DNA from: Actinoallomurus spadix
GTDB lineage: Bacteria > Actinomycetota > Actinomycetes > Streptosporangiales > Streptosporangiaceae
Reading direction: 5' to 3'
Assembly: GCF_024055725.1 (NCBI RefSeq)
Contig: NZ_JAMXMX010000004.1
Location: forward strand, 62,001 to 126,000
Length of the DNA: 64,000 bases
Part shown: piece by piece, positions 4,417 to 18,231 of the stretch
Layout: the number at the start of each line of letters is the position of its first letter
Position numbering within the stretch: the first letter of the stretch is position 1
The notes under the pieces: generated by a model
Seen by the model: the letters and a program-made list of their open reading frames with translations, nothing else
The model's database searches: none
Told to the model about the DNA's origin: nothing
Program-made: the position numbers and the translations under genes

Positions 4417-4649
4417 TGCCATCCTCTGATCGTGTTCTGGCCGCGATTTCATCGCCCCGTGGCCGTAGCCGCGCCACCCCCTGGGCGGGCCAATCGTAGT
4501 GCGTGGCGTCGGTGCAGGTGGGAACGGCTGATATCAGGCAGGCCTCAACCCGATCCTGGTCACCCCTTGTGATATGAGGCCGGGGCGGTAATGGTGGTGA
4601 CCACGGGTGTGGCACCCGTCACACCCATCCGTCCTTTGGAGGTGGGCAC

Positions 4650-6794
4650 GTGGCGGACAAGACAGCTCCCCAAGCCGCCGGCAGGGCACCAGCGGTCGAC
4701 CAGCCCGACAAGATTCGCAACATCGCGCTGGTCGGCCACTCCGGAGCGGGTAAGACGACGCTCGTCGAGGCGCTGCTCGCTGCGACCGGTACCATCCAGC
4801 GGCCCGGTCGCGTCGAGGACGGCTCGACGGTCAGCGACTACGACGAGGTCGAGATCCGCCAGCAACGCTCGGTGAACCTCTCGCTCGCCTCGTTCCTGTA
4901 CGGCGGGACCAAGGTCAATCTGCTCGACACCCCGGGCTACGCCGACTTCGTCGGTGATCTGCGGGCCGGGCTGCGGGCGGCCGACGCCGCGCTGTTCGTG
5001 GTGTCCGCGGTCGACGGCGTCGACGGCCTCACCCGGATGCTGTGGGAGGAGTGCGCGCTGGTCGGCATGCCGCGCGCGGTCGTCATCACCAAGATCGATC
5101 AGCAGCGCGGCGACTTCGACGAGGTCCTCACCGCCTGCCAGGACGCCTTCGGCGACGGCGTCCTGCCGTGCTACTTCCCGTGCGAGGCCGGCCTGATCGG
5201 GCTGCTCACCGGGCGGTGTTTCGACTACTCCTCCGGCGAACGCGTCGAGCGCGACCCCGACCCGCAGTTCCTGGACCGTCTCGCCGAGCAGCGCGGCGCC
5301 CTCATCGAGGGGATCATCCAGGAGAGCGAGGACGAGACGCTCATGGATCGCTACGTCTCCGGGGAGCAGATCGACGTGAAGGTCCTCATCGAGGACCTGG
5401 AGAAGGCCGTGGCGCGCGGCAGCTTCTATCCCGTGCTGGCCACCTCGGTCCCGCACGGGGACCATCCCGGGCCGGTGATCGGGATGCGCGAGCTCCTCGA
5501 GGTGATGACGCAGGCGTTCCCGTCGCCCATGGAGCACGGCATCCCCGCGGTCACGCGGGTGGACGGCTCGCCCGCGAAGGACCTGACCTGCGACCTGGAC
5601 GGCCCGCTGGTGGCCGAGGTCGTCAAGACCACCTCCGACCCGTACGTCGGCCGGATCTCGCTCGTCCGGGTGTTCTGCGGCACGCTCCGGCCGGACGACA
5701 CCGTGCACGTCTCCGGGCACGGCATGGCGGACCGCGGCCACGAGGACCACGACGTCGACGAACGGGTCGGCGCGATCACCTCCCCGCTGGGCAAGGCCCA
5801 GCGCACGATGGCCTCCTGCATCGCCGGTGACATCTGCGCGGTCGCCAAGCTCACCCACGCCGAGACCGGCGACACGATCTCCTCCAAGGACGCCCCGCTG
5901 CTGATGGCGCCCTGGTCGATGCCGGACCCACTGCTGCCGACGGCGATCCGCGCCAGGTCCAAGGCCGACGAGGACAAGCTGTCCCAGGCGCTGGCGCGGC
6001 TGGTGGCCGAGGACCCGACGCTGCGGCTGGAGAACAACTCCGAGACCCGCCAGCTCGTCCTGTGGAACATGGGCGAGGCGCACGCCGACGTGCTCCTGGA
6101 CCGGCTGCGCAGCCGGTACGGCGTCGAGGTGGAGACCGTGCCGCTGCGGGTCCCGCTGCGCGAGACGTTCAGCGGCAAGGCGCGGGGCCTCGGCCGGCAC
6201 GTCAAGCAGAGCGGCGGCCACGGGCAGTACGGCATCTGCCACATCGACGTCGAGCCGCTGCCGTCGGGCGGCGGGTTCGAGTTCATCGACAAGATCGTCG
6301 GCGGGGTCGTCCCGCGGCAGTTCATCCCGTCGGTCGAGAAGGGCCTGCGGATGCAGATGGAGCGCGGGGTCCTGGCGGGCTACCCGCTCGTCGACATCCG
6401 CGTCACCCTGCACGACGGCAAGGCGCACTCGGTGGACTCCTCCGACATGGCGTTCCAGACGGCCGGGCAGCTCGCGCTCAAGGACGCCGCCGGGAAGACG
6501 CAGATCCTGCTGCTGGAGCCGGTCGACGAGGTATCGGTGCTCATTCCGGACGACTACGTCGGCGCGGTGATGTCGGACCTGTCGTCCCGGCGCGGCCGGG
6601 TGCTCGGCACCGAGACCATCGCCGGGGGCCGTTCGCTGATCAGAGCGGAGGTCCCCCAGTTGGAGATCACCCGGTACGCCATCGACCTGCGGTCGATGTC
6701 GCACGGCACCGGGACGTTCAGCCGCTCGTTCCTGCGGTACGAACCGCTGCCGTCGCACCTGGCCGAGAAGGTCGCCGCCGAGTCGAGGGAGTGA
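4650..6794 (+). CDS. Elongation factor G-like translational GTPase
   Basis: A 714-residue translational GTPase of the second EF-G type common in actinomycetes. GHSGAGKT (P-loop, residues 29-36), DTPGYADF (G3) and TKID (G4) are intact, and the C-terminal EF-G domains IV/V can be followed. The G4 is TKID rather than NKxD and there is no fusA/tuf/ribosomal neighbour, so it is the paralogue, not the housekeeping EF-G. GTG start has a clear GGAGG site 7 bases upstream. Divergent from pgsA. Its precise ribosomal role is not established for the family. Confidence 0.88.
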   Translation: MADKTAPQAAGRAPAVDQPDKIRNIALVGHSGAGKTTLVEALLAATGTIQRPGRVEDGSTVSDYDEVEIRQQRSVNLSLASFLYGGTKVNLLDTPGYADFVGDLRAGLRAADAALFVVSAVDGVDGLTRMLWEECALVGMPRAVVITKIDQQRGDFDEVLTACQDAFGDGVLPCYFPCEAGLIGLLTGRCFDYSSGERVERDPDPQFLDRLAEQRGALIEGIIQESEDETLMDRYVSGEQIDVKVLIEDLEKAVARGSFYPVLATSVPHGDHPGPVIGMRELLEVMTQAFPSPMEHGIPAVTRVDGSPAKDLTCDLDGPLVAEVVKTTSDPYVGRISLVRVFCGTLRPDDTVHVSGHGMADRGHEDHDVDERVGAITSPLGKAQRTMASCIAGDICAVAKLTHAETGDTISSKDAPLLMAPWSMPDPLLPTAIRARSKADEDKLSQALARLVAEDPTLRLENNSETRQLVLWNMGEAHADVLLDRLRSRYGVEVETVPLRVPLRETFSGKARGLGRHVKQSGGHGQYGICHIDVEPLPSGGGFEFIDKIVGGVVPRQFIPSVEKGLRMQMERGVLAGYPLVDIRVTLHDGKAHSVDSSDMAFQTAGQLALKDAAGKTQILLLEPVDEVSVLIPDDYVGAVMSDLSSRRGRVLGTETIAGGRSLIRAEVPQLEITRYAIDLRSMSHGTGTFSRSFLRYEPLPSHLAEKVAAESRE

Positions 6795-16382: not shown

Positions 16383-16556
16383 TCAGCAGCACACGAGACC
16401 GCCCGGTGCCGGTATGGCCAGCGCCACCGCTACCGAGGCCGCCGACCCGGCCGACGCGGCGGACTCCGATGTAACGGAACCGGCCATCCCGCTTACGATC
16501 AGTGACCCAACAGTTGAAACAACTACCAGCGCTATGACCCTGCGCAGACGTGACAT
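16383..16556 (-). CDS. Small secreted peptide, candidate pheromone precursor
   Basis: A 57-residue ORF, not previously obvious because it lies opposite other frames. It starts MSRLRRVIALVVV, a basic N-terminus plus hydrophobic core, then SGMAGS as a possible cleavage site; the mature part is small-residue rich and ends IPAPGGLVCC. An AAAGGA ribosome site is 9 bases upstream. Its ATG is 52 bp from the divergent start of a HTH-TPR regulator. This is the layout expected for a secreted signal peptide and its cytoplasmic receptor. The ORF is supported by start signals and signal-peptide form only; function is inferred. Confidence 0.6.
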   Translation of the reverse strand: MSRLRRVIALVVVSTVGSLIVSGMAGSVTSESAASAGSAASVAVALAIPAPGGLVCC

Positions 16557-16608
16557 TCTTTCTTATCCTTTCCTGTGGCAGTGTCATTTTCTTCTAGAGG
16601 CGGGCGAG

Positions 16609-17907
16609 ATGCCAGAGCAAGAATCACTCGGTGAACGGATTCGGTCTTTGCGGCTGCGCAAGAACCTCTCTCAGGCACAGCTCGCCTGGCCGGAACTCTC
16701 CGACAGCTACGTCTCACTCATCGAGAGCGGCAAGCGCACGCCGGCGCCGAGTATGATCGCGTTGCTGGCGCGCAAGCTCGACTGCTCTGAGTCATATCTG
16801 CTGACAGGAGTCAGCGAGGAAGCGATCGCCGGTCTCCGGGAAACCCTGCGTTACGCGCACATCGCTCTGGAGAACGGCGCGGCCGACGAGGCACGCATCC
16901 GTTTCGCCGAGGTATCGGCGCACCCCGCCGTGACCGATATTCCCGGGCTCGAACACGAAGCGTGCTGGGGGCACGCCCTCGCGCTGGAGGCGACCGGCGC
17001 ACTGAAGGAGGCGCTCGGCGAGCTGGAACGCGCGGCGAGGATGATCTCCCCCACCACCGAGCCCGACCAGTGGGCCAAGGTCCACACCGCGCTGATCCGC
17101 TGTCACCGGGAGCTCGGTGACCTGACGACCAGCATCCAGGTCGGCGAGAAGGCCCTCGATCAGCTCACCGCGATGGGCGGCCAGTGGACCGACGCGATGG
17201 TGATGCTCGGCTCGACGATCCTCGGGGCGTACATCTATCGCGGTGATCTCGCCTACGCGCGCCAGTTCGCCGACATGCTGACCGTGCGGGCGGAGGCCAT
17301 CGGCACGCCCAAGGCGCGGATGGCCGCCTATTGGAACGCCGCATGGGCGGCCGAGCTCAGCGGCGACGCGCCGGGCGCGCTCAAGTTGGCCGAGCGCGCC
17401 ATCGCGCTCCTGGGCGAGGAGGACGACGCCCGGAACCTGAGCCGGCTCCGGGGGGCCTACGGTCACTTCCTGCTCTGCGCGCGGCCGGACCGGGCGGAGG
17501 AGGCACTCAAGGTGCTCCGGCAGGCGCAGCGCGAGATGGAGTCCACCGCGACGAGCACCGTCGACCTCGCCTCCTGCCTGCTGCACCAGGCTCGCGCGGA
17601 GATCATCCTCGGCAACCCCGTGGAGGCGGCGAGCCTGGCCCGGCGGGCGGCCGATCTGCTCAGTGACACCGCCGGCCAGGACATCGCGGAGGCCTACACG
17701 GTGCTCTCGGAGGCGCAGGCATGCCTCGGCCAGCGGGAGGAGGCGGTGGCCGCCCTGTTCCAGGCGGTCGACTACCTGGAGAAGATGGAGGCGCACCGGC
17801 CCGCGGCGCGCGCCTGGTTCGACCTGGCGGAGCTGCTGGGCGCGGCGGGCCAGGCCGACGGCCAGAAGGTCGCGTTCCAGCGAGCCCTCGCCTGCATGGG
17901 GCTGTGA
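16609..17907 (+). CDS. HTH-TPR transcriptional regulator (RRNPP-like architecture)
   Basis: A 432-residue protein. Residues about 7-62 form an HTH_3/XRE domain (ERIRSLRLRKNLSQAQLAWP, SYVSLIESGKRTPAPSMIAL). The rest is helical repeats with TPR-like A/G patterning (for example ENGAADEARIRF, EATGALKEALGELERA, LGQREEAVAALFQAVDYLEK), roughly eight units. This is the domain order of RRNPP peptide receptors (Rgg, PlcR, PrgX, NprR). ATG at 16609 has AGAGG 8 bases upstream. A secreted peptide gene is divergent and a His-rich lipopeptide gene lies downstream. RRNPP kinship is inferred from architecture, not sequence comparison. Confidence 0.8.
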   Translation: MPEQESLGERIRSLRLRKNLSQAQLAWPELSDSYVSLIESGKRTPAPSMIALLARKLDCSESYLLTGVSEEAIAGLRETLRYAHIALENGAADEARIRFAEVSAHPAVTDIPGLEHEACWGHALALEATGALKEALGELERAARMISPTTEPDQWAKVHTALIRCHRELGDLTTSIQVGEKALDQLTAMGGQWTDAMVMLGSTILGAYIYRGDLAYARQFADMLTVRAEAIGTPKARMAAYWNAAWAAELSGDAPGALKLAERAIALLGEEDDARNLSRLRGAYGHFLLCARPDRAEEALKVLRQAQREMESTATSTVDLASCLLHQARAEIILGNPVEAASLARRAADLLSDTAGQDIAEAYTVLSEAQACLGQREEAVAALFQAVDYLEKMEAHRPAARAWFDLAELLGAAGQADGQKVAFQRALACMGL

Positions 17908-18084
17908 CCGCGACATCACGACCACGGAACGCCGGCACGACCGCGAAACGCCGGGAGGGCGCCGGCCGATGAGAGATCGACCGGAACCGATCAGCGCCAC
18001 GGCACGTCTGTGTTCTTGTTCATGAAGGGTTCCTCCGGGAAAGCCGGACGGAACCTGAGGGCACGACTCTCGGAGGAAGACGTG

Positions 18085-18231
18085 ATGGTTCGGCGGATCC
18101 GGCTGGCGACGGTGGTGGTCGTGGGGCTCGTGCCGGCGTTGCTCGCGCTGTCGGCCTGCGGCCACTCTCACCACCACCACACGGTGGTGCACCACCACGT
18201 CGTCCACCACCACGTGGTCCACCACCGCTGA
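18085..18231 (+). CDS. Histidine-rich small lipoprotein
   Basis: A 48-residue product. Basic start MVRRIRL, hydrophobic core, lipobox LSAC at residues 22-25; after cleavage only 24 residues remain, of which about half are His arranged as HHHH-TVV-HHH-VV-HHH-VV-HH. A GGAGGAAG site lies 5 bases before the ATG. The mature peptide would be a membrane-anchored metal-binding tail. It is 177 bp downstream of the HTH-TPR regulator on the same strand and ends in a strong terminator, so it could be part of that locus. No family recognised. Confidence 0.72.
   Translation: MVRRIRLATVVVVGLVPALLALSACGHSHHHHTVVHHHVVHHHVVHHR

Follow-up and report, generated by a model that had tools for sequence, protein, structure and literature searches.

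Does a divergent gene pair of Actinoallomurus spadix encode a secreted peptide signal and the receptor that reads it? In the accessible parts of published surveys, peptide signalling of the RRNPP type is a trait of the Firmicutes/Bacillota (PMC10075063, PMC9765709, PMC12700828), and signalling in Actinomycetota is typically based on small molecules made by enzymes (PMC10075063). The accessible part of a 2016 review on actinobacterial quorum sensing names TPR proteins, and no such receptor–peptide system (PMC4748050). A sequence-only reading of a 64,000-nucleotide stretch of the A. spadix genome (contig NZ_JAMXMX010000004.1, positions 62,001–126,000; the window) had proposed that a clear actinobacterial version with a cysteine-ended peptide would be new. 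This agrees with those surveys and with the open-access literature (most subscription papers lie outside it), in which no earlier description of an HTH-TPR/CC-peptide pair was found.

Proposed receptor gene and its predicted structure

The proposed receptor is a cytoplasmic XRE-HTH/TPR regulator of 432 aa, encoded on the + strand at 16609..17907 (432 codons, with the ATG at 16609 and the stop codon at 17905–17907) and recognised by translation, a Pfam match and an AlphaFold2 model. Pfam places HTH_3 at residues 11–64 (E 4e-9), and TPR_12 matches with an E-value of 9e-6 but does not reach its curated cut-off. The AlphaFold2 model, with a pLDDT of 90.6, consists of helices throughout. The HTH domain (residues 7–66; 16627..16806, +) was delimited from the predicted structure and shows little variation in the Nonomuraea genus. 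It is followed by eight TPR-like helix pairs (residues 112–429; 16942..17895, +), the helices being taken from the model and the repeat frames placed by eye. The HTH_3 match and the all-helical model with its eight pairs thus bear out the 432-residue regulator with HTH-then-TPR order that had been described from the letters alone.

In a profile search of the PDB with residues 1–354, PlcR comes first (E 1.3e-8) and NprR fourth (E 1.6e-6, spanning residues 118–353); with the whole receptor, PlcR comes sixth, after designed, kinesin-type and G-protein-modulator TPR proteins. Because other TPR proteins score similarly, the matches to PlcR and NprR are support and not proof. Foldseek returns many TPR proteins, with the PlcR–PapR7–DNA complex at rank 42 (E 2.3e-6) as the first RRNPP receptor among the 50 matches listed. 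No RRNPP subfamily or C-terminal domain model of Pfam or NCBIfam is matched by the receptor at E up to 1. A putative assignment as an RRNPP-type receptor is supported by domain order, adjoining propeptide gene and best PDB match (PlcR), but not by the curated RRNPP models.

The nearest receptors among the best 80 of 425 named loci are those of A. soli and A. purpureus, with 94% and 77% identity, respectively. The same genome encodes two further receptor paralogues, 49% and 41% identical to the window receptor, and beside neither of them was a Cys-Cys-ended (CC-ended) secreted ORF found.

The small secreted ORF and the intergenic gap

A 57-codon ORF is positioned divergently from the receptor gene, running from 16556 to 16383 on the − strand (16383..16556). 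Its 57-aa product begins with a signal sequence (MSRLRR..., basic residues and then a hydrophobic stretch) and ends with IPAPGGLVCC; its assignment as a secreted propeptide is based on translation, homologues and a codon test. AGGAAAGGAT is located directly 5′ of its ATG. The divergent ORF 52 bp from the receptor, with its own ribosome site, signal sequence and PAPGGLVCC end, is thus present as first described. Pfam gives no match for the window propeptide, and NCBIfam gives nothing near the cut-off for eight propeptides.

The 52-bp region between the divergent starts (16557..16608) is alignable and partly conserved among the eight Actinoallomurus loci. It must contain both ribosome sites, and the promoters of the two genes probably overlap within it. 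No operator was established in the intergenic gaps of Actinoallomurus and Nonomuraea, which hold short conserved blocks only, namely GTGACA...TGTCAC in the former and the ribosome sites in the latter. GTGACA...TGTCAC was considered as an operator and dropped, since one of its arms overlaps the peptide start codon.

Conserved pairing across actinobacteria

The receptor homologues come from 100 relatives (37 of which match at E ≤ 1e-40), a named genome collection (the best 80 of 425 loci), 16 plasmid records (7 loci taken) and, class-wide, 394 genomes (62 of which match at E ≤ 1e-30). Removal of duplicates by identical receptor starts left 180 distinct loci, which were screened for signal-peptide-like small ORFs by a single fixed criterion. 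In 86 of these 180 loci, from nine families (f1, f11, f16, f21, f22, f27, f28, f29 and f40), a CC-ended secreted small ORF lies no more than 600 bp from the receptor gene. Counted by ORF, the CC end is found in 90 of the 146 signal-peptide-like small ORFs within 600 bp, in contrast to 2 of the 98 further off (1.58 Mb, both strands counted); 19 additional ORFs of this type overlap the receptor gene and have other ends.

The peptide gene is mostly divergent and mostly 25–100 bp from the receptor. It is divergent upstream only in 72 loci, convergent downstream only in 9, in both positions in 4 and upstream on the same strand in 1. Since divergent and convergent orders both occur, the association is independent of any single gene arrangement. 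Among the remaining loci, 2 have a CC ORF only far away and 92 have none; 52 of the latter are Actinomadura/Thermomonospora loci of the named set, in which 24 of 80 loci carry the CC ORF. A looser criterion gives near CC ORFs in two more loci, L049 and L194. Four loci (L156, L166, L169 and L172) possess, besides the divergent ORF, a second, longer CC-ended secreted ORF, which is convergent downstream and ends with GGSDFCC, GGSDYCC or GGSLYCC.

Is the small ORF kept beside orthologues? Its absence or drift there had been set beforehand as the observation that would count against the pair, and this is not the case within the genus, where it adjoins all eight Actinoallomurus orthologues, window included. 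The receptor with a divergent CC ORF is present in 54/54 genomes of the genus g4, 15/15 of g89 and 12/12 of g95 (family f21). We take g4 as Nonomuraea, the propeptide of the N. gerenzanensis locus L133 being the same as that of L255, and g89 as Microbispora, the propeptides of the named loci L123 and L131 being the same as those of L213 and L207. The expected neighbour was thus found in many genera of relatives, with Actinomadura as a large group that is without it. Besides the pair, no gene common across families was found among the neighbours examined.

The pair may be mobile, because linear plasmids of Streptomyces carry PLCC-ended proteins near a receptor homologue. In the S. goshikiensis plasmid (L134), an annotated 71-aa hypothetical protein ending with IPLCC is encoded on the receptor strand, 166 bp downstream of the receptor gene (4601–4816), and in another Streptomyces plasmid (L137) an annotated hypothetical protein ending with DLPLCC is encoded 1.9 kb downstream (6220–6384). 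The CC ORF is thereby present in 2 of 5 Streptomyces plasmid loci, and none was found in L135, L136 and L138. A phage-labelled contig (MT836207.1, 95–1069, −) contains a partial receptor homologue with 37% identity over residues 7–333. Outside the class, receptor matches were found in 8 of 295 genomes (the window's own excluded), three of the loci being partial, and a CC ORF in none of them.

Tail diversity and selection on the terminal cysteines

The 54 Nonomuraea propeptides have 48 distinct seven-residue ends. The N-terminal part, including the signal sequence, is conserved among them, and the entropy is 2.7–3.2 bits at positions −3 to −8 and 0 at both cysteines. Among pairs with a receptor identity of 80–99.5%, the mean identities of tail and leader are 0.17 and 0.81 in Microbispora, 0.33 and 0.72 in Nonomuraea, 0.37 and 0.51 in Actinoallomurus, and 0.58 and 0.83 in f21. 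Two loci of the Microbispora genus (L207 and L208) have receptors that are 95% identical and tails that are unrelated, KYTAACECC versus NIATSLYCC. The tails are not altered at every speciation, because the closest Nonomuraea pairs, with receptors 96% and 99% identical, have the same tails across the six residues compared.

In the codon test (42, 9, 1 and 8 pairs in four groups, gene pairs of unequal length being left out), the CC codons have a pN of 0 with a pS of 0.50 in Nonomuraea and 0.75 in f21, and no change of any kind in the other two groups. In the first two groups, the cysteine codons thus vary synonymously between close relatives and never otherwise; therefore, the CC end is kept as protein and not as DNA. 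The pN/pS ratio is 0.32–0.70 for the leader and 0.61–1.03 for the tail, taken as the six residues before CC.

In contrast to the hypervariable tails of other clades, the heptamer GPRVHCC is identical across several genera (L011, L012, L013, L061 and L063), while the rest of the propeptide differs. In 10 genomes searched with the RVHCC DNA pattern, it occurs as a single copy adjoining the receptor in 3 and is absent in 7, of which 4 have a peptide-less receptor of the Actinomadura type.

Receptor variation at the predicted groove

If the tails are read by the receptor, does its groove vary as well? By convention, positions 2, 5, 9, 12 and 13 of a TPR are taken to line the groove. In the Nonomuraea receptors the mean entropy is 0.07 bits in the HTH and 1.18 bits in the TPR region. 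A set of predicted groove sites, positions 9, 12 and 13 of repeats 3–6, was picked on Nonomuraea and then tested elsewhere by shuffles within repeats, which ignore phylogeny (duplicate genomes and L124, with a short frame, were excluded). In the window receptor these hypervariable sites correspond to G206 I209 Y210, W246 E249 L250, L288 A291 R292 and R329 I332 I333. Variation is enriched at the set in the Microbispora genus (n = 15, p 0.0002), other Streptosporangiaceae (n = 17, p 0.0002), Actinoallomurus clade A (n = 8, p 0.010) and f21 (n = 20, p 0.034).

No enrichment was found, at low power, in peptide-less receptors of the Actinomadura type (n = 51, p 0.19), whose divergence is lower and whose trend has the same direction (0.61 versus 0.47 bits), in the peptide-less Actinoallomurus clade C (n = 5, p 0.54) or in a clade whose secreted ORF lost the CC end (n = 7, p 0.65). 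The replication in four clades is a stronger argument than these small or less diverged controls. With all eight repeats and all five positions, the enrichment is weak throughout (p 0.036 in Nonomuraea, 0.027 in f21, 0.074 in Actinoallomurus, 0.14 in other Streptosporangiaceae and 0.46 in Microbispora); repeats 3–6 are therefore a choice made from the data and replicated only afterwards. A ranking of receptor sites by mutual information with the tail is no more than suggestive, with groove sites making up 4 of the top 5, but 9 of the top 40 against about 5 expected. The variability that had been looked for in the peptide C-terminus and at the predicted TPR groove is seen in both, with 48 distinct ends among 54 and enrichment in four further clades. 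Since tails and groove sites both diversify, recognition of the peptide by the receptor is favoured.

Loss of the peptide and of its cysteines

Peptide presence is clustered on a receptor tree of 140 rows, which was built by a quick method and has many long branches; 12 of the 52 peptide-less rows of the Actinomadura type were kept (40 dropped), and L124 was dropped for its short frame. Because the peptide-less Actinomadura group nests in a clade in which the remaining members, drawn from several genera, have the identical GPRVHCC end, the tree points to a loss of the peptide in Actinomadura. Seven secreted divergent ORFs without CC (L030, L031, L041, L147, L149, L150 and L151) form one group, and the ends of most of its members are Trp/Pro-rich, such as GWGWPG and GPWGYPI.

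Neighbouring genes and alternative explanations

In most of the Streptosporangiaceae loci examined, the receptor gene is directly followed by CopC and CopD/CtaG-like copper genes. CopC follows the receptor in 54/54 Nonomuraea loci, and both genes are present in 14/14 Microbispora-genus loci examined and in 16/17 of other Streptosporangiaceae (at 6364–9005 in L122, for example). The window has a His-rich lipopeptide in place of these genes. This raises the question of whether the secreted peptide is itself an effector, bacteriocin-like or copper-binding through CC and HCC ends that could bind Cu(I), with the HTH-TPR protein merely its transcriptional regulator and sensing something else. We consider this unlikely. 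A tblastn search at 1e-6, in which most flanks extended about 1.5 kb downstream, gave no copper gene next to the receptor in Actinoallomurus clade A (0/8, window included), f21 (0/19) or 20 more distant peptide-bearing loci. CopD is found within about 5 kb flanks of the peptide-less Actinomadura receptors in 46/52 loci, and the clade that lost CC retains both copper genes in 7/7. Copper handling was therefore not adopted as the function, the CopC/CopD synteny being a family-level feature, and the diversification of tails and groove sites speaks for a peptide that the receptor recognises. The other neighbours, among them an aminotransferase, a histidine kinase and further genes, differ by group, and the neighbours point to no single common target. 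A RiPP precursor was also rejected, as the neighbouring proteins examined (9 and 10) have no modification enzyme in common.

The lipopeptide of the window (18085..18231, +) comprises 48 aa by translation and contains a lipobox-like LSAC, and its tail is rich in His (CGHSHHHH...); a longer in-frame start is available at 18010. It adjoins 6 of the 8 Actinoallomurus receptors of the window's clade, a seventh having a His-rich remnant, and was not found outside Actinoallomurus by a strict-motif scan, which missed one of the six. It possibly binds metal. The second tiny exported product that had been noticed downstream is indeed there, but is no part of the conserved pair; as a second signal of a conserved unit it was rejected, being confined to 6/8 loci of one clade (strict scan elsewhere).

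Alternatively, the receptor might read the peptide inside the cell, as a check on secretion or redox state, with no communication between cells. The CC end could report a thiol/disulfide state, and such a check would need neither the release nor the uptake that signalling presupposes. Species-specific tails, which are characteristic of peptide signalling types, would be left unexplained by a self-monitor, and we regard this explanation as improbable.

The ORF ends in two cysteine codons, and in the window a thioredoxin gene begins about 220 bp further on, on the same strand, a neighbour kept in 7 of the 8 Actinoallomurus loci. The ORF could accordingly be a cysteine-responsive leader peptide, whose CC codons, next to the stop codon, make the ribosome stall and so attenuate the downstream gene; the accessible part of one paper reports polycysteine short ORFs as attenuators in mycobacteria (PMC9094748, citing Canestrari et al. 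2020). This explanation is rejected as very improbable, since no same-strand target is constant (outside Actinoallomurus the flanks searched gave no thioredoxin gene; the next same-strand gene is an OHCU decarboxylase 0.4 kb off in L057, and in L122 a xanthine dehydrogenase 1.9 kb off, with a convergent PucR gene in between), the ORF tracks the receptor, even on its far side in 9 loci, the signal sequence is conserved, seven loci have the ORF without terminal Cys, and hypervariable tails are not predicted by it.

Comparison with known peptide–receptor systems

Of the features by which RRNPP/RRNPPA members are recognised, the receptor has the N-terminal XRE HTH with C-terminal TPRs and the profile similarity to known members (PlcR and NprR); the adjoining secreted propeptide gene is present in the window, as in the 86 of 180 loci, and missing in Actinomadura. 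PapR is a small secreted propeptide whose C-terminal peptide is the signal. PlcR–PapR of the Bacillus cereus group resembles the present pair in its XRE-HTH followed by TPRs and in the small secreted propeptide gene that adjoins the receptor; in contrast, the host here is actinobacterial, the peptide gene is mostly divergent and the end is Cys-Cys. NprR–NprX of Bacillus shares the HTH-TPR receptor, but differs in phylum and tail chemistry, and its phosphatase role has no support here. In Rgg–SHP and ComR–ComS of Streptococcus, too, the regulator stands alone and a short signal peptide is encoded next to it, and ComR is a weak match of the receptor HTH (E 4e-4). The short peptides SHP and ComS lack a classical signal sequence, whereas the present ORF has one, together with the CC end. 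NsdA-family proteins are actinobacterial TPR regulators, and the NCBIfam match to them is weak, with 25.8 bits far under the cut-off of 75. A further difference from PlcR–PapR is that the receptor has about eight TPR-like pairs, compared with a core of five in the accessible part of one survey (PMC12700828).

Proposed mechanism and implications

We propose that the locus is, with good probability, a PlcR/PapR-like two-gene system, in which a secreted peptide with a dicysteine end is the signal and the cytoplasmic HTH-TPR protein is the receptor. The proposal builds on the conserved pairing, the coding nature of the ORF, the protein-level selection on its CC end and the diversification of both tails and predicted groove sites. 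The small ORF would encode a propeptide exported by the Sec pathway, with the leader retained for export. Its C-terminal residues, perhaps 6–16 in the mature peptide and closed by Cys-Cys in nearly all peptide-bearing lineages, would be set free outside the cell and would re-enter it, most likely via an oligopeptide permease. The peptide would then bind the concave TPR groove of the receptor, and the bound receptor, with altered DNA binding, would change its action at the divergent promoter of its own gene and at further genes. The residues before CC, together with TPR repeats 3–6, would set the specificity ('pherotype'), and the two cysteines may have been retained for a common chemical role, such as a vicinal disulfide, capping or thiol chemistry. 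To our knowledge, an invariant Cys-Cys end would be new chemistry for peptide signals of this kind.

A far more speculative extension, which we hold to be doubtful, is that the whole class shares an actinobacterial peptide language, with a pair or two per species and dozens of specificities, and that the shared dicysteine makes the peptide's redox or metal state part of the message. The peptide could be active outside as a disulfide or in Cu-bound form and be reset by cytoplasmic thiols, or the reverse.

The results are suggestive of a peptide-signal family in soil actinobacteria that has gone unrecognised. If the proposal is true, a genetically encoded signal would be added for genera such as Nonomuraea, Microbispora, Planotetraspora and Actinoallomurus, and possibly a handle on their silent metabolism. 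The candidate signal sequences are ready for synthesis, and the many species-specific tails would form a natural data set on receptor specificity.
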